Shown here in pieces: positions 7,154-19,284 of a stretch of DNA of 34,959 nt. How positions within the stretch are numbered: the stretch's first letter is position 1; each line of letters starts with the position of its first letter. The notes under the pieces are model-generated. The model worked only from the letters and a program-made list of their open reading frames with translations, did not search any database and had not been told where the DNA came from. Where the stretch lies: assembly GCA_003231955.1 (NCBI GenBank), contig QIKL01000033.1:1-34959 (forward strand). Reading direction: 5' to 3'. The stretch comes from Candidatus Uhrbacteria bacterium (GTDB lineage Bacteria; Patescibacteriota; Patescibacteriia; 2-12-FULL-60-25). The position numbers and the translations under genes are program-made.

Positions 7154-8443
7154 TCATTCAATGTGGAGTGTCCAGAGGCCAGTCCGACCATTTTTTGATC
7201 CAAGGATGAATAGCTGTTTTCCAGAAAAAGCGAAATCTGTGAGATTATCAAAACTCGCGAGTAAGGTTTCGAGTCGGCCGTCTCGTTGGTCTAGGTTTAA
7301 TGCGCGAAGTTTCGTCGCAGTCGCATAAAAAATATTTTTACCGTTTGTATACCACGCGGCATCTATAATTGGTTCACTTTGTCGGAGGAGAAGTTGCGGC
7401 TCCGTCGTCGGATTCCATGTCCAAATTTCGTTACCGTTTACGAGAAGTTTGTTTGGTTTTCGCGATGATGGATCCTGGCGGAGCATGTCTCCAGATGCAG
7501 TGTGATATTCAAAACCTGCATTGTCTTTAACGAGGGATAACCACTGCATACCGTTTCTGAGGATGATAATATGCTGGTTAGATGTCCAAAACGTCCACGC
7601 ACCAGGGGGAAGAGTGAACCCTTTATTCGGTGTTTTTATATCCACATAAGCTCGTCGTGTTGTTCCGTTTGGTAGCATAAGCAGATTATTTTTTAGTATG
7701 TCTATTTGGCCCGACTGGAGCGTTGATTGAGTTAATGAGAAGTTGGATGTTTGGATTGTGAGGAGTGATGCCTTATCATTTCCGATAAGATCTGAATTTT
7801 GCCAGCGATAGATACTGGGTGGAAGTTTTAATGTTTGATGGGATGTATTCGTATCAATGAGCCATGAGTGCTTTAATGGTTTTTTAGATTCAACTAACGC
7901 GTACCGTCCATTTGGAGACCAAAAGATGTTTTTTCCCTCTATATTCGGCACAGTAAGCGTAGATCGTAACAATGAATGCGTATTTATCAGGACAGCTTTG
8001 GTCGGTGTGGAAGAAGAAAGATAGAGTAGATGTTGTTTGTCCGTGGACAAACTTAAGATTCCGGGCGCTAGATTGATAATAAATTGTGGCTGTTTCTGTT
8101 TCCAGAGTTGGATATCATTAGCGAACGTCACATGCTCGGCAATAACCTCAAGTGATTTTTCCCAGGGGAAATATCCATTTTTGGATATGGTGAAATGATG
8201 TTCGCCTGGAGGCATACTTTGGATCGTCACTGGCGTCGTATTGGATATGGTTCGTCCGTCGACTTGAATATTAGCTCCCGATGGAACTGAGTCGATAATG
8301 ACGGTTCCGTTACGCTCAATCATATCTTTTTTTGGATTCCAGCGATATCCAGCCGTATAAAAAACAAGCGCTGGTGCGACGCCGAAAAATGTGATTGTAA
8401 ATATCCACGGGAGTATTCGGAGATGAAATGGTGATTTACGCAT
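7154..8443 (-). CDS. Membrane-anchored PEGA-domain, propeller-like protein
   Basis: A basic N-terminus and one membrane segment (about residues 10-30) are followed by a PEGA domain at about 46-115: GTVIIDSVPSGANIQVDGR, then TTPVTIQSMPPGEHHFTISKNGY. The remaining 310 residues are rich in Trp/Asn/Gly beta repeats (IFWSPNGRYALVESK, AAWYTNGKNIFYATA), as in WD40/TolB-like propellers. The architecture suggests an extracytoplasmic protein that binds cell-wall material or partner proteins. No enzymatic motif is seen. It converges on the epimerase-like gene with only 6 bases between stops, and is divergent from the protease gene. This combination is common in Patescibacteria but its function is not known. 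Confidence 0.82.
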   Translation of the reverse strand: MRKSPFHLRILPWIFTITFFGVAPALVFYTAGYRWNPKKDMIERNGTVIIDSVPSGANIQVDGRTISNTTPVTIQSMPPGEHHFTISKNGYFPWEKSLEVIAEHVTFANDIQLWKQKQPQFIINLAPGILSLSTDKQHLLYLSSSTPTKAVLINTHSLLRSTLTVPNIEGKNIFWSPNGRYALVESKKPLKHSWLIDTNTSHQTLKLPPSIYRWQNSDLIGNDKASLLTIQTSNFSLTQSTLQSGQIDILKNNLLMLPNGTTRRAYVDIKTPNKGFTLPPGAWTFWTSNQHIIILRNGMQWLSLVKDNAGFEYHTASGDMLRQDPSSRKPNKLLVNGNEIWTWNPTTEPQLLLRQSEPIIDAAWYTNGKNIFYATATKLRALNLDQRDGRLETLLASFDNLTDFAFSGKQLFILGSKNGRTGLWTLHIE

Positions 8444-8516: not shown

Positions 8517-9866
8517 ATGTTAGGAGATGTGAAACGGCGACCTGGCAAGGCCAGATGGATTTTTGGAGTGATTTTTATTGCGGGTTTTTCATTTGGTGCT
8601 GGATCTCTTTATGGCAGGGCGGGTGTGGTTCAGGCAGACCAAAGTTCCGCAACCTCTGCGCTTGCCAGCGCAAATTCATCTACGGTTATTGGTATCGGAA
8701 GCCCGCCGCCGGCTGATATTATGTCGCCGGCAAATTTTTCAAAATTTTGGAATCTCTGGCGAATGCTTCAACAAAAATTTTACAAGCAGCCAGTTAACCA
8801 AAAAGAGATGCTCTATGGCGCCATGAGCGGGCTCGCGCAGTCGCTCGGCGATCCGTATACAGTTTTTTTTGAGCCTAAGACCGCACAGGAATTTTCTCAG
8901 GAGTTGCAGGGTAAATTTGAAGGTATTGGTGCGGAAATTGGGATTAAAAATAAACAGTTAGAGATTATTGCTCCATTGCCAGATACACCAGCGGCGCATG
9001 CGGGACTTTTAGCTGGAGACATAATTTTAAAGATTAATAAAATGGATACGGCAGGAATGTCACTCGATAAGGCAGTTCATCTCATTCGTGGAAAGCGCGG
9101 AACACCGGTTTCATTTCTGATTGGGCGATATAAAAAAAAGGAGATAAAAAATGGAAAAGAAATACAAGCGCCGACGACCGTCGAAGTGACTGTTATTCGC
9201 GATGTCATTCATGTGAAGAGTGTTAACGTCAAATATAAAGATGGGAATATCGCGGTGATTACAGTGACAAGTTTTAACGAAGATACGAGTAAATTATTTT
9301 CCGACGCGGTTCAACAGGTTCTTGCGAAAGATGTAAAAGGCGTTATCCTTGATCTCCGAAACGACCCAGGCGGGTATCTCGATCGCGCAATTTCTATGGC
9401 GAGTAATTGGCTTGGAGATAAAGTTATCGTCAAGGAGCGCCGACAGGGGAAGATTGTTGAAGAATATCGAGGAAATCCTACAGCGCCGCTACGCGATATG
9501 CCGACAGTCGTACTTGTGAATGGAGGATCGGCATCTGCGTCGGAGATTGTAAGCGGTGCCTTGCAGGATTACAAAAAAGCGACAATTGTCGGAACTAAAA
9601 CCTTTGGAAAGGGATCCGTACAAGATTATACGCAGCTTCCAGACGGGAGTGCTGTGAAGATCACGATCGCAGAATGGCTGACACCAAAGGGCCGTTCGAT
9701 TAATAAACAAGGGATTGAACCGGATGTGACGGTCGAGCCCACTCAAAAAGACGTCAATGCCCAACGAGATACACAACTCGATAAGGCCATTGAAATCCTT
9801 ACCGGAAAGTCGGCCACAACGACCGCACCGGAAGAGACTTCATCGACCTCATCAAACGGGAACTAA
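8517..9866 (+). CDS. C-terminal processing peptidase, S41 family
   Basis: This is a CtpA/Prc-type serine protease with an N-terminal membrane anchor (about residues 14-32), a PDZ domain (about 130-225, with FEGIGAEIG and DTPAAHAGLLAGDIILKIN), and an S41 catalytic domain. The catalytic Ser is predicted as Ser340 in GGSASASEI and the Lys as Lys365 in TFGKGSVQ, with the 25-residue spacing usual for CtpA. GVILDLRNDPGGYLD is also typical. It likely trims or degrades envelope proteins outside the cytoplasmic membrane. The ATG at 8517 is chosen over the in-frame TTG at 8481 because the latter is the -35 box. The last 110 bases overlap the Nudix gene in another frame. Confidence 0.93.
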   Translation: MLGDVKRRPGKARWIFGVIFIAGFSFGAGSLYGRAGVVQADQSSATSALASANSSTVIGIGSPPPADIMSPANFSKFWNLWRMLQQKFYKQPVNQKEMLYGAMSGLAQSLGDPYTVFFEPKTAQEFSQELQGKFEGIGAEIGIKNKQLEIIAPLPDTPAAHAGLLAGDIILKINKMDTAGMSLDKAVHLIRGKRGTPVSFLIGRYKKKEIKNGKEIQAPTTVEVTVIRDVIHVKSVNVKYKDGNIAVITVTSFNEDTSKLFSDAVQQVLAKDVKGVILDLRNDPGGYLDRAISMASNWLGDKVIVKERRQGKIVEEYRGNPTAPLRDMPTVVLVNGGSASASEIVSGALQDYKKATIVGTKTFGKGSVQDYTQLPDGSAVKITIAEWLTPKGRSINKQGIEPDVTVEPTQKDVNAQRDTQLDKAIEILTGKSATTTAPEETSSTSSNGN

Positions 9867-10371: not shown

Positions 10372-12033
10372 ATGCTACATACACGACCACGTAGACTGAC
10401 ACGCCGCCAGTCTACAATTTTTGTTGTTGGAGGGGTGATGAGTGGTGTTGGGAAGGGAATCGCGACCGCATCAATCGGCGCGCTTTTAAAAGCTCGCGGA
10501 TGCCGTGTGACAGCAGTTAAGATTGATCCGTATCTCAATGTGGATCCAGGTACACTTAATCCTATTGAACACGGCGAGGTCTTTGTGACAAAGGATGGTC
10601 TAGAAACTGATCAGGACATCGGAAATTACGAACGTTTTCTCGATGAGGATCTTACGCGCGCAAATTGTATGACGTCAGGAAGTGTGTTTAAGACGATCAT
10701 CGACCGCGAACGCGCTCTGGGATATGGCGGCCGGACGGTCGAATGGGTTCCAGACGTTCCGAACGAAGTTATTCGGCGTATCAAGCTTGCGGCAAAAAAA
10801 TCAGGCTCTGAGATCACACTTGTTGAAATTGGAGGTACAGTGGGAGAATATCAAAATCTTTTATATCTTGAAGCTTGTCGTATGATGCGGCTTGAAGCTC
10901 CTGATGACGTATTGGTCGTTTTGGTAAGTTATTTTCCGGTTCCGGGAAGTATTGGCGAGATGAAAACCAAACCAACACAGTATGCCGTGCGGACTCTCAA
11001 TAGTGCGGGACTCCAGCCGGATATCGTTATTTGCCGCGCGGTTTTTCCGATTGATGAGCCGCGGAAGCATAAACTCTCTGTTGGATGTAACGTCCCTCCA
11101 GAAGCTGTTATCGCCGCGCCGAATGTCTCGTCAATCTATGAAGTCCCGCTCAAGTTTCATGCCGAAGGGGTTACGGAACGAATTATTGAGAAGTTGCATC
11201 TTCAAAAACGGCCGCTTCGTATTTCAAATTGGATTAACTTTAATCGACGGATTAAAACATCGACTGCTCCGGTAAAGATCGGTGTGGTCGGGAAGTATTT
11301 TTCTACTGGAAATTTTGTGCTGACAGATTCATATCTCTCTGTGCTTGAAGCGATTAAACACGCGGCATGGCATTGGCACCTCAAACCAGAGATCGTGTGG
11401 TTAAACAGCGAAGATTTTGAAAGACATCCATCGGCTGTCGCGTCCGCACTCAAAAAACTTGATGGAGTCCTTATTCCTGGGGGATTTGGGACGCGCGGGA
11501 TAGAGGGAAAACTTTGTGCGATTAAATATGCGCGAGAACACAACCTTCCGTATCTTGGGTTATGTTACGGGATGCAGCTTGCAACGGTTGAAGTTGCACG
11601 GCATCTTTTGGGATGGAAGGACGCGAATACGACAGAGATTAACCCCAAGACATTGCATCCAGTGATTCATCTTATGAATGAACAGGAAGAAAAGATGAAG
11701 GATAAACATTACGGAGGGACGATGCGTCTCGGCGAGTATCCGTGTATTTTAAAGAAAGGGTCACGTACGCGTAAACTTTATGGAAAAGATCAGATTATAG
11801 AGCGCCATCGTCATCGGTTTGAAGCAAATCCAGCATATCGTTGTGAGCTTGAAGAGGCAGGTCTCGTTGTTTCGGGTGTATCGCCAAATGGTGTTCTTGC
11901 GGAGATTGTGGAGTTTAAGGACCATCCGTTTTTTGTGGCATCACAATTTCATCCAGAATTTCTCTCGCGTCCCTTTCGTCCGCATCCGTTATTTTTGGGT
12001 TTTTTAAAAGCCGCAATAATGAAGAAGAAATAA
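10372..12033 (+). CDS. pyrG: CTP synthase
   Basis: This enzyme makes CTP from UTP, ATP and glutamine. The N-terminal synthetase domain begins with GGVMSGVGKGIATASIGALL (about 20-39) and contains KIDPYLNVDPGTLNPIEHGE and the EIGGTVGEYQN run. The C-terminal class I glutaminase has GGFGTRG, the nucleophile Cys in LGLCYGMQLA near residue 395, and the His/Glu pair in SQFHPEF. At 553 residues the length is normal. CTP is also the co-substrate of RfbF in the same window. The short basic N-terminal extension before the conserved TIFVVGG is a variable part of the family. Confidence 0.97.
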   Translation: MLHTRPRRLTRRQSTIFVVGGVMSGVGKGIATASIGALLKARGCRVTAVKIDPYLNVDPGTLNPIEHGEVFVTKDGLETDQDIGNYERFLDEDLTRANCMTSGSVFKTIIDRERALGYGGRTVEWVPDVPNEVIRRIKLAAKKSGSEITLVEIGGTVGEYQNLLYLEACRMMRLEAPDDVLVVLVSYFPVPGSIGEMKTKPTQYAVRTLNSAGLQPDIVICRAVFPIDEPRKHKLSVGCNVPPEAVIAAPNVSSIYEVPLKFHAEGVTERIIEKLHLQKRPLRISNWINFNRRIKTSTAPVKIGVVGKYFSTGNFVLTDSYLSVLEAIKHAAWHWHLKPEIVWLNSEDFERHPSAVASALKKLDGVLIPGGFGTRGIEGKLCAIKYAREHNLPYLGLCYGMQLATVEVARHLLGWKDANTTEINPKTLHPVIHLMNEQEEKMKDKHYGGTMRLGEYPCILKKGSRTRKLYGKDQIIERHRHRFEANPAYRCELEEAGLVVSGVSPNGVLAEIVEFKDHPFFVASQFHPEFLSRPFRPHPLFLGFLKAAIMKKK

Positions 12034-12357: not shown

Positions 12358-12398
12358 AGAGTTGGTAGTCTATTATGTGCAATCTACGAATATGCTAG

Positions 12399-12449
12399 AG
12401 ATTATGATAAAAACACCATCTTGTCAAGATATGAGAATACGGCTAAACT
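12399..12449. promoter_or_regulatory. Back-to-back promoters for rpmA and the NifU-domain gene
   Basis: The 9-base sequence CTTGTCAAG (12420-12428) reads as TTGTCA on the plus strand (12421-12426) and TTGACA on the minus strand (12427-12422). On the plus strand a 17-base spacer leads to TAAACT (12444-12449), 11 bases before the ATG at 12461. On the minus strand a 17-base spacer leads to TAATCT (12404-12399) towards rpmA; a second -10-like TAGACT lies 9 bases before the rpmA ATG. The -35 boxes share the same bases, so polymerase cannot bind both promoters at once. Confidence 0.65.
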
Positions 12450-12460
12450 ACGCATAAAAT

Positions 12461-12706
12461 ATGCCTAAATCCGAAATAGAGTTGCGTGAGGAAATCGAAA
12501 AGGTCCTGGATGTTCTTCGCGAAGGGATCGCTATGCACTCGGGAAATGTCGAGCTGGTTGCTGTTGATCCTGTCTCAGGTAAGGTTTCAGTACGATTTCA
12601 GGGGATGTGTGTCGGATGTCCAATGTCGGATTTGACACTCAAAGCTGGGATTGAAGAAACACTTCGTGAGATGATTCCAGAAGTTACTGAAGTCGTTGCG
12701 GTCTAG
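12461..12706 (+). CDS. NifU C-terminal-domain Fe-S scaffold protein
   Basis: This 81-residue protein is a stand-alone NifU C-terminal domain. The N-terminal helix (LREEIEKVLDVLREGI) leads into VELVAVDPVSGKVSVRFQG and the metal-binding CVGC (Cys50 and Cys53), followed by TLKAGIEETLREMIPEV. Such proteins carry or transfer iron-sulfur clusters. No other Fe-S assembly gene is in the window. It is read divergently from rpmA, with a predicted leader of only about 5 bases. Confidence 0.92.
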   Translation: MPKSEIELREEIEKVLDVLREGIAMHSGNVELVAVDPVSGKVSVRFQGMCVGCPMSDLTLKAGIEETLREMIPEVTEVVAV

Positions 12707-16344: not shown

Positions 16345-16531
16345 AGCAATATAAAGCGTTTTTGTGATAACTGGACAATCGCTATTTTTAGCGGAGAATC
16401 AAATGAAGAGAATACCAGTGAAAAAGAATATATAGTTGAAAGCGTCAAAAAGATTGACGGAGTTAAAAAATAATGTATCGTATCTTATAGTTCATAAAGG
16501 ACATTCACAAAATATAAAAAGGAGACCAATC
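16345..16531 (+). promoter_or_regulatory. AT-rich leader with promoter and Shine-Dalgarno for the GGDEF-like gene
   Basis: This 187-base gap holds a small hairpin (CGCTA/TAGCG near 16379-16393) that could weakly end the murG transcript. A promoter candidate, TTGACG (16454-16459), 16 bases, TATCGT (16476-16481), predicts a leader of about 45 bases. AAAGGAG (16518-16524) sits 7 bases before a GTG at 16532. The region is clearly more AT-rich than its neighbours. Confidence 0.55.
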
Positions 16532-17305
16532 GTGAAAAGATACCAGCGTATTTGGGGTAGAAAAGTCTTGAAAGTTGTTGAAACGTACGACCGAAATCAG
16601 AAGCTGTTTCTGTTTGGTGTTACTGGAGACTTAAATAACCTTGGAATTTTTGTGTCTCGGTATGGACGTCCATTGGCGGAAAATCTTGTAGATATCTACA
16701 ATCGCCTCATTGGTACGTTCATGTACAGGTTCATCAAAAAACACTCAAAGGTGATTTCGGCATTTTGTATGATCCCTTCGGGAGAAGAAGTCTTTGCTAC
16801 TGGAGCAGCGGCTGATCAATTGGTTGTACATGAGTTTTTCTCACTGTTGAGGAGTGAGATGAATAATTTTATCCAAGAGAACGCTCACATCGCAGATGAG
16901 AATGTTACCGTGTCATTTGGCTGTAAAATTTTTTCGGACGATACGATCGGCGACACAGCTTCACGCTTTGTTGCGTTAGTAAGAGGACAGCAAATCCAAG
17001 ACGCTTCGTCGGCATACCTTGAACTTATGCTTGCCATGCGTCGTGAACTCGCTTACGAGCTTGACCAAGCAAAGTTTAGCTCCCTAAATGTTTCCGACTT
17101 TGATCTTGTTATGTTTTTTCGGAACGTGGTATACACCAAACTCCAGAATTACAAAAAAGAATCAAAGGAGGCACTTGTAATCCTCGCCAATCAGATACGT
17201 CAAAATGTTGAGCTTCGGGAACGCCTTCAAACCATGACGTTAAATTCCGAGTATGGCATAACAGACAAAGATGCTCAGTTCATCAATGAACTCCTTAGAG
17301 AATAG
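16532..17305 (+). CDS. Degenerate GGDEF-like protein
   Basis: This 257-residue protein looks like a diguanylate-cyclase-type palm domain followed by a helical tail. LFGVTGDLNNLG (26-38) places an Asp at 33, where GGDEF domains bind metal. SGEEV at 83-87 sits where the GG(D/E)EF signature should be, and ENVTVSFGCKIF (124-134) matches the conserved VTVSxG strand. The first Gly and final Phe of the signature are lost, so cyclase activity is doubtful; nucleotide binding or a different product is possible. Residues 150-257 are helical and charged. The GTG start is chosen over an open frame back to 16436 because of its Shine-Dalgarno site. It stands alone before a strong terminator. Confidence 0.65.
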   Translation: MKRYQRIWGRKVLKVVETYDRNQKLFLFGVTGDLNNLGIFVSRYGRPLAENLVDIYNRLIGTFMYRFIKKHSKVISAFCMIPSGEEVFATGAAADQLVVHEFFSLLRSEMNNFIQENAHIADENVTVSFGCKIFSDDTIGDTASRFVALVRGQQIQDASSAYLELMLAMRRELAYELDQAKFSSLNVSDFDLVMFFRNVVYTKLQNYKKESKEALVILANQIRQNVELRERLQTMTLNSEYGITDKDAQFINELLRE

Positions 17306-17316
17306 AGCTGACGTAA

Positions 17317-17349
17317 AAAGGCCGAATGGAATTACTCCATTCGGCCTTT
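17317..17349 (+). terminator. Strong rho-independent terminator
   Basis: A perfect 14-base-pair stem (AAAGGCCGAATGGA at 17317-17330 with its complement at 17336-17349) encloses the 5-base loop ATTAC. The A/T ends make it usable on both strands, so it can also end the tRNA-Lys transcript coming from the right. Confidence 0.9.
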
Positions 17350-17393: not shown

Positions 17394-17468
17394 TGGTGCG
17401 CCCGGCGGGGATCGAACCCACGACCATTGGCTTAAAAGGCCACTGCTCTACCACTGAGCTACAGGCGC
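17394..17468 (-). tRNA. tRNA-Lys(TTT)
   Basis: Read on the minus strand, the acceptor stem GCGCCTG (5' end at 17468) pairs with CGGGCGC. The D arm is GCTC-AGTGGTA-GAGC, the anticodon loop CTTTTAA gives UUU, and the T loop is TTCGATC with the usual GTTCGA-type signature. The 3' CCA is encoded (17396-17394). The outermost anticodon-stem pair is G-A instead of a regular pair. It stands alone between the terminator and a glycosyltransferase gene. Confidence 0.95.
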
Positions 17469-17599: not shown

Positions 17600-18721
17600 A
17601 TGAGGATCTCTATGATTGGGTGCAAGGGGATTCCTGCCTTCGCATCTCAGGGGGGCGGGATCGAGACACATGTCGAAGAACTCTCGACGCGTCTTGTCGA
17701 ACGCGGACATACTGTCACGGTTTATGTTCGTCCGTATGCGAATCCAGACCGAAAAACATCATACAAGAACGTTCGTCTCGTGACGATCCCGACGATTCAT
17801 CGGAAGCACCTCGACGCAGTTACACATACGTTTCTTTCATCAATCCACGCACTTTTTACACGGTCGCAGATTCTGCACTACCATGGTGTAGGTCCATCGA
17901 CGCTTTCATGGATCCCGCGAGTTTTTGCGCCATGGAAAAAGGTCGTTGTGACATTTCATAGTCGAGATAGGTTTCATGAAAAATGGCAATGGTTTGCGCG
18001 AGCGTATCTTGCTTTTGGTGAATGGACGAGCGTACACTTTCCGCATGCGACAATTGCAGTCTCTCATTCAATTCAGGTATTTTGTAAAAAGACGTGGGGA
18101 GTGACAGTGTGGTATGTCCCGAATGGCGTGGAGATTCCAAGACTCCATCCAGGGACTGATTTGCTTCAAAAGTTTGGTTTAGAGCCTGAAAAATATTTTT
18201 TTACGTTAAGCCGACTTGTTCCTCATAAGGCGGTTGAAGATGCGATTAAGGCATTTGCGCAGATCGACACGGATACGAAGCTAATTATTATTGGAGCAGC
18301 ACCATTTAATGACACTGCGTATGAAACGATGCTTCAAAAACTCGCACAAAAAGATCCGCGCGTGATTATGGTCGGAAGGCAAATCGGAAAGGAACTGATA
18401 CAAATTATTGCCAATGCATATGCAATGATTCATCCATCGCGCAGCGAAGGACTGTCCGTTGCAGTGCTTGAAGCGATGTCTTACGGAAAAATGGTCATCA
18501 TGAGTGATATTTTAGAAAATTTGGAACTCATTGATCATTCTGGCGTCGCGTATAGTGTCGGAGATGTAAAAGCATTGCGAGACGCGATTACATGGCTCCT
18601 GAGCGATCCTGCAATTGTTAAAGAACGCGGAATTCGCGCGCGTGGAGTCATTGAGAGGCTCTATTCATGGAAGAGCGTCGTTGAGCGTACGGAAGCTGTG
18701 TATAGTTCATTATGCGGATGA
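17600..18721 (+). CDS. GT4 family glycosyltransferase
   Basis: This is a GT-B retaining glycosyltransferase of 373 residues. The N-terminal domain opens with ISMIGCKGIPAFASQGGGIETHVEELS, a glycine-rich acceptor loop, and contains VVVTFHSRDRFHEKW. The C-terminal donor domain starts near VWYVPNGVEIPR and has FFTLSRLVPHKAVEDAI and the EX7E motif (EGLSVAVLE, about 282-290), followed by AMSYGKMVIMSD. It heads an operon with a translin-like gene, a GT2 gene and murD, all overlapping by ATGA or nearly so, which suggests a surface-glycan or wall-linked role. A short ORF just upstream in another frame is not supported. Confidence 0.9.
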   Translation: MRISMIGCKGIPAFASQGGGIETHVEELSTRLVERGHTVTVYVRPYANPDRKTSYKNVRLVTIPTIHRKHLDAVTHTFLSSIHALFTRSQILHYHGVGPSTLSWIPRVFAPWKKVVVTFHSRDRFHEKWQWFARAYLAFGEWTSVHFPHATIAVSHSIQVFCKKTWGVTVWYVPNGVEIPRLHPGTDLLQKFGLEPEKYFFTLSRLVPHKAVEDAIKAFAQIDTDTKLIIIGAAPFNDTAYETMLQKLAQKDPRVIMVGRQIGKELIQIIANAYAMIHPSRSEGLSVAVLEAMSYGKMVIMSDILENLELIDHSGVAYSVGDVKALRDAITWLLSDPAIVKERGIRARGVIERLYSWKSVVERTEAVYSSLCG

Positions 18722-19284
18722 AGCGAACATTGGTCTTTGCAGATTTGGCGAAGCGGTATACTGCGTCGAAAGATGCGATGTATTTGTTACAACGGTTTGG
18801 ATCAGAACTGATACGGCTTTCAAAAACCGCGATATTCGCGATGCAACGTGGAGCGGATTCACCGAACGAAATTTGTTCTGCTGAAAAGATCTTAAAAAAA
18901 GGTCAAAAAATTATCACGCGGAATCCGCATCTGAAAGATGTCGGACCGTGGCAGGCTGGACTGGAAGAATATGCGGAGGCACTTTTATTTTTCGCATTCA
19001 TTCATGAAGATCAAACAACTTTCCATTTGGTTATGAAGATGGATCCGGGGATTACGATCGGAGCGTTGTCGGATTTTGTTGGAGAGTTGGTTCGACTTGC
19101 GGTGCGTGAAGCGACATATCGGCATACGGAGCGTGTAACAAAAATTATAGAGACCGCAAATGAGATCGTTGTGTTTTTGACATCATTGGATCTGACGGGC
19201 TCTCAGCGTTCTAAAGGTGATCAATCTCGACAGCATCTTCGTCGCCTTGAAGATATTCGATACGATCTTTCTCGCCATGTATGA
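18718..19284 (+). CDS. Translin/TRAX family protein (predicted ribonuclease)
   Basis: This all-helical protein of 188 residues matches the translin family. GLEEYAEALLFFAFIHED (81-98) aligns with the TRAX helix that carries two catalytic Glu, here Glu84 and Glu87. DFVGELVRLAVREA (119-132) aligns with DLTGELMR, with Asp119 in the third catalytic position. RRLEDIRYDLSRHV (175-188) is the typical translin C-terminus, preceded by RSKGD. Translin and TRAX bind single-stranded nucleic acid, and TRAX with these residues is a Mg-dependent RNase in eukaryotes and archaea. The ATG at 18718 overlaps the previous stop (ATGA); an ATG at 18712 is also in frame. The next gene again overlaps by ATGA. Confidence 0.82.
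   Translation: MKRTLVFADLAKRYTASKDAMYLLQRFGSELIRLSKTAIFAMQRGADSPNEICSAEKILKKGQKIITRNPHLKDVGPWQAGLEEYAEALLFFAFIHEDQTTFHLVMKMDPGITIGALSDFVGELVRLAVREATYRHTERVTKIIETANEIVVFLTSLDLTGSQRSKGDQSRQHLRRLEDIRYDLSRHV

Follow-up and report, generated by a model that had tools for sequence, protein, structure and literature searches.

Palm-domain cyclases serve as GGDEF domains in c-di-GMP signalling, as Cas10 in type III CRISPR and as mCpol in Panoptes immunity. Cas10 is a multi-domain protein that belongs to a type III CRISPR locus and carries a GGDD hairpin. GGDEF domains carry a GG(D/E)EF hairpin, and Asn at +8 and Asp at +17 from the strand-1 Asp are the residues that recognize guanine in PleD. Enzymes with an SGDEF or AGDEF motif can retain activity, and degenerate GGDEF domains can serve as receptors (PMC3974145). 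Two further studies describe mCpol as having nearly lost the GGDEF signature while retaining the hairpin and one acid (PMC12657218, PMC12657230). The peptidase MccF (family S66) and the S51 enzyme MccG both cleave the aspartate–nucleotide bond in processed microcin C (PMC9239234). Here, a gene from a Candidatus Uhrbacteria contig is compared with these systems. It probably encodes a palm enzyme of the nucleotidyl-cyclase type that is cassette cargo at tRNA 3' ends and that would act with peptidases in relatives; its catalysis, product, partnership and role are all putative.

The window, which is the whole 34,959-nucleotide stretch analysed, contains a forward-strand open reading frame at 16532–17305 that starts with GTG (ATG in the closest orthologue, at locus L019) and encodes a palm-domain protein of 257 amino acids. 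The gene sits between murG, named from its translation, and an opposite-strand tRNA-Lys gene (17394–17468), the 3' end of which faces the palm gene 89 bp from its stop codon and is a candidate insertion target. Upstream lie a promoter-like pair, TTGACG/TATCGT with 16-nt spacing (16454–16481, forward strand), which is named from its match to the consensus only, and a Shine-Dalgarno-like AGGAG (16520–16524, forward strand). The stretch from this pair to the start codon, AGGAG included, is kept in L019. A sequence-only reading had already assigned the gene its own Shine-Dalgarno site and GTG start, and both are in place. It had also described a very strong terminator. A strict terminator scan counted zero here, since the T run behind the stem is short, but a perfect, terminator-like 14-bp hairpin of −23.8 kcal/mol follows the stop codon (17317–17349, forward strand) and persists with altered sequence in L019 (−22.4) and L036 (−24.8). 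Further downstream, positions 18712–19284 of the window encode a 190-amino-acid protein that we take to resemble translin-family proteins.

Homologues of the window protein occur in three other genomes. The closest, at L019 on contig L033 of genome G783, was found by a scan of genome contigs and is 79% identical across all 257 amino acids. The copy in genome G1271 (locus L036) is intact and 54% identical, and that in genome G505 (locus L025) is divergent, with about 26–40% identity in two pieces, and is split just after CGEE by one frameshift that reflects either decay or an assembly error. The gene is present in 1 of 41 genomes in the window's own order (the window genome itself), and convincing matches occur in 1 of 380 genomes in a sample of its class and in 2 of 379 in a sample of its phylum. 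The corresponding counts are 1/41 for the order and 1/85 for the class of G505, and 2/244 for the order and 1/383 for the class of G783. Weaker matches in 16 genomes of the class sample (E 0.007–0.09) and in three of the phylum sample (E 0.001–0.01) were dropped as short partial stretches. Viral contigs (five scans), phages and plasmids yielded no homologue of the palm protein; Pfam, PADLOC and PHROGs searches of the window protein gave no match, a single NCBIfam match (E 0.029) was taken as chance, and PDB sequence searches returned chance matches only. The palm family is rare and patchy over at least three orders.

The reading frame is a real gene under constraint. Comparison of the window gene with its L019 orthologue gives a dS of 0.72, a dN of 0.112 and a dN/dS of 0.155, with dN/dS of 0.126 for the palm and 0.218 for the C-terminal part. 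The palm gene and its S66 peptidase neighbour in L019 have GC contents of 0.45 and 0.46, compared with 0.27–0.43 for the 13 other genes measured there, and this contrast, together with the patchy distribution, points to horizontal transfer.

An AlphaFold model based on a five-row alignment, which holds four homologues only, reaches a pLDDT of 76 and a pTM of 0.65, with ten-residue blocks at 74–96 over residues 11–180. It predicts a palm domain at residues 1–185 (about 7–185; 16532–17086, forward strand) with strands at 26–34, 75–82, 86–93 and 127–133, and a helical C-terminal part at residues 186–257 (17087–17302, forward strand) that is modelled at low confidence (pLDDT about 46–68) and is at most a candidate for the new domain proposed in the sequence-only reading. 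A single-sequence model (pLDDT 42, pTM 0.34) was not used. All 50 matches listed by VIA-align contain GGDEF domains (Z 10.7–12.9, rmsd 2.6–3.9 over 136–149 residues). Foldseek mixes GGDEF and Cas10/Csm1 structures at E about 1e-3 (best GGDEF 4e-4, Csm1 7.6e-4), with Thg1 and class III cyclases among weaker rows, and a viral structure library gave no match to the model at E 0.001 or less. The fold had been named beforehand as a check on the sequence-only reading, and the predicted fold is a palm, with GGDEF matches up to Z 12.9. Chance resemblance was rejected on the strength of the orthologues and this model. A common fold alone is no proof of function.

The residues that would carry function are placed as expected from that reading, which had pointed to the order Asp33, SGEEV (83–87) and VTVSFG (125–130); all three are present in the translation. 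Asp33, a predicted metal ligand, ends strand 1 (16628–16630, forward strand), and Ser83-Gly84-Glu85-Glu86 (16778–16789, forward strand) lies at the modelled turn between strands 2 and 3, with the first three residues in the turn itself. Across all four homologues, 59 residues are invariant; they include the blocks T31-G32-D33, N36-L37-G38 and A49-E50-N51-L52-V53-D54, as well as G84-E85-E86, S128-F129-G130, R170 and K181. Where the alignment covers all four homologues (246 columns), invariance extends to 23 of the 34 motif columns versus 36 of the 212 others (Fisher 5e-9), the motif columns having been picked after the alignment had been seen. The two-metal carboxylates (Asp33, Glu85/Glu86) have apparently been kept, and the proposal of a repurposed nucleotide-binding or cyclic-oligonucleotide enzyme fits both the predicted fold and the invariant acids.

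Peptidase genes are recurrent neighbours of the family. An S66 (MccF-like) gene lies near the palm gene in three of the four loci (L019, L036 and G505) and an S51 gene in two (L019 and G505). At L019 the S66 gene (PF02016 1.5e-19, PF17676 3e-11) is convergent with the palm gene and an S51 gene (PF03575 6.6e-34) adjoins. The palm gene of G1271 is also convergent with an S66 gene, the product of which is 59% identical to the L019 S66 over 355 amino acids; the other S66 of G1271 shows only 28% identity over 158 residues. In G1271, the palm gene and an NTP_transf_6 nucleotidyltransferase gene (L036:6990–7616; PF06042 1e-53) are divergently oriented. At the G505 locus, an S51 gene (8e-15) comes after the palm gene and overlaps it, and a co-directional S66-like gene (L025:8333–9190; N-domain 59 bits) also follows; the latter appears to join an S66 N-terminal domain to an S51-like C-terminal half and may be a chimera or a truncated or decaying gene.

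These peptidases resemble MccF and MccG/PepE in their domains. In L019 and G1271, the S66 proteins have both N and C domains and retain Ser and His at the catalytic triad positions of MccF, and the linked S51 domain has its GLSAG serine. They differ from microcin C systems in that the catalytic Glu of MccF reads Asp at L019 and L036, and no microcin precursor or MccB-type gene was noticed near the palm genes. Since MccF and MccG cleave processed microcin C, nucleotide-aspartyl chemistry is, by analogy, a reasonable guess for the module. A literature search that does not cover most subscription journals yielded no paper linking MccF to GGDEF or Cas10 to LD-carboxypeptidase. At E 0.01, neither S51 nor S66 is matched in the window genome, and with both peptidases missing there the partners are dispensable in that genome. 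The gene had been called isolated, which is accurate for the window genome but not for the family.

Repeats with tRNA pieces bound two of the four loci. On contig L033, direct repeats of 115 nt (9287–9401 and 12536–12650, 91% identical) flank the S51-S66-palm block; each carries a piece that resembles a tRNA 3' end, and one of them adjoins a complete tRNA-Ile gene. L025 has 189-nt direct repeats (8139–8325 and 10771–10956, 68% identical), one of which spans the tRNA-Asp 3' end, and among 200 random 2.8-kb L025 stretches, taken as a control, only one had a repeat at its ends with an E of 1e-4 or lower. The palm gene is adjacent to a tRNA gene at three of four loci; the window and L036 loci showed no flanking repeats, L036 has no tRNA gene within 16 kb, and no recombinase gene was seen between the repeats among the ORFs listed for L033 and L025. 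Flanking repeats with a tRNA 3' end suggest that the family may spread in a very small tRNA-targeted cassette that lacks its own recombinase. The repeat-bounded blocks in L033 and L025 amount to 2.8–3.4 kb of cargo, like minimal tRNA-targeted islands, and the palm cassettes presumably resemble tycheposons. The convergent S51 and palm units of L033 share a predicted promoter region, as an exact 39-nt inverted repeat (L033:9622–9660 and 12382–12420) lies upstream of both.

Under the interpretation that we favour, the window protein would be a stand-alone palm enzyme of the nucleotidyl-cyclase superfamily (GGDEF, Cas10, mCpol) that binds nucleoside triphosphates and links them to form a small nucleotide product, which may be cyclic. 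The family would move as cargo of small cassettes at tRNA gene 3' ends, and the palm enzyme of the relatives probably acts with the MccF-like S66 and S51 (PepE/MccG-type) peptidases. Both peptidase families act on processed microcin C, where they cleave the bond between aspartate and nucleotide, so the module probably serves in conflict or in the handling of nucleotides, and the window genome would retain its palm gene alone. A further step would be a conflict or signalling system of a new, nucleotide-based kind, in which the palm makes a nucleotide or conjugate, the S66 and S51 enzymes cut that product or a foreign peptidyl-nucleotide, and synthesis and cleavage form one mobile module at tRNA genes of small-genome bacteria; this step is quite improbable. 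A rare family outside the profiles of the known palm cyclase systems, which retains its metal acids and is linked to peptidases of two families that destroy peptidyl-nucleotide antibiotics, would extend such systems to the reduced genomes of Patescibacteria-like bacteria, and it supplies specific proteins for assay.

Alternatively, the S66 and S51 genes could be linked to the palm gene only as shared cargo of a tRNA-targeted element, with the palm working by itself, for instance as a nucleotide synthase in anti-phage defence or stress. The window genome fits this possibility, which we rate as somewhat unlikely: it lacks both peptidases, yet the gene is under purifying selection. Against it, S66 stands beside the gene at three of four loci in two different arrangements, convergent (L019 and L036) and co-directional (G505), and in L033 the palm unit has its predicted promoter region in common with the S51 unit.

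A second alternative is that the palm binds a nucleotide, makes none and signals through the helical C-terminus as a non-catalytic sensor or receptor. The hairpin is altered to [SC]GEE[VI], the N and D at the GGDEF base-recognition positions are replaced by V41 and E50, and degenerate GGDEF domains can have a receptor role (PMC3974145). A pure receptor would need no metal acids, however, and all four homologues carry Asp33, Glu85 and Glu86 unchanged, even though one of them shares only about 26–40% identity with the window protein; the same conservation leaves unrefuted the sequence-only reading, which had named the loss of these acids in orthologues as a refuting result. We therefore regard a receptor as unlikely.

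The hairpins of the four homologues (SGEEV, SGEEV, SGEEI and CGEEV) are neither GG(D/E)EF nor GGDD. The second palm of Cas10/Cmr2 shares with the family a palm fold, a DxDNLG-type motif after strand 1 (GD[LI][DN]NLG in 4/4 homologues) and an acidic pair in the turn between strands 2 and 3; it differs in having GGDD where the family has [SC]GEE, with two acids retained, and in belonging to a multi-domain protein, whereas the window protein is a single palm protein of 257 amino acids. In mCpol, too, the GGDD motif is only partly retained. Gly occurs at +5 in six of seven Cas10 sequences examined, two of which read DVDNLG. The Pfam Cas10-Cmr2_palm2 profile (PF22335) matches one of five rows over residues 31–154, with E 9e-4 and 19.8 bits against a cut-off of 27. 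Profile–profile comparison with the full profile, in which 3/100 column shuffles reach the Cas10 score and 25/100 the GGDEF score, is not significant alone; with a palm-only five-row profile, 4/100 and 5/100 shuffles do so. Sequence detail leans closer to Cas10 than to diguanylate cyclases, while the structure search puts GGDEF first. No cas gene was noticed among the ORFs listed for the four loci.

The family also resembles mCpol (OptS of Panoptes) as a small stand-alone palm cyclase with acids both where strand 1 ends and in the hairpin, a likeness by description rather than by sequence comparison. The palm protein is about twice the usual mCpol length. Among the ORFs listed for these four loci, no S-2TM-beta membrane effector of the Panoptes type was noticed, and PADLOC gave no match for the palm or peptidase proteins scanned.

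GGDEF proteins (PleD, Dcsbis and WspR) are the best solved structural matches, and the stretch from the strand-1 Asp to the start of the next helix aligns gap-free with the window protein. The family departs from them in its hairpin and in positions +5, +8 and +17 from the strand-1 Asp, which are K, N and D in all seven GGDEF sequences examined and G, V and E in the palm family, with V41 and E50 invariant in 4/4 homologues. Pfam GGDEF (PF00990) matches none of the five rows at E up to 10. An ordinary diguanylate cyclase making c-di-GMP with a degenerate yet active motif is thus very unlikely, despite the structural matches and the activity ascribed to SGDEF and AGDEF enzymes (PMC3974145), given the missing Pfam match, the three replaced positions and the lack of a sensor domain. 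The description of the protein as a degenerate GGDEF member was too narrow: it has no Pfam GGDEF match, its guanine-recognition positions differ, and its sole Pfam palm match, below threshold, is to the Cas10 palm2. The same Pfam library, as a control, gives 2e-35 with PF00990 for a genuine GGDEF protein of G505 (L025:11060–12019), with tRNA-Asp lying between its gene and the palm gene.
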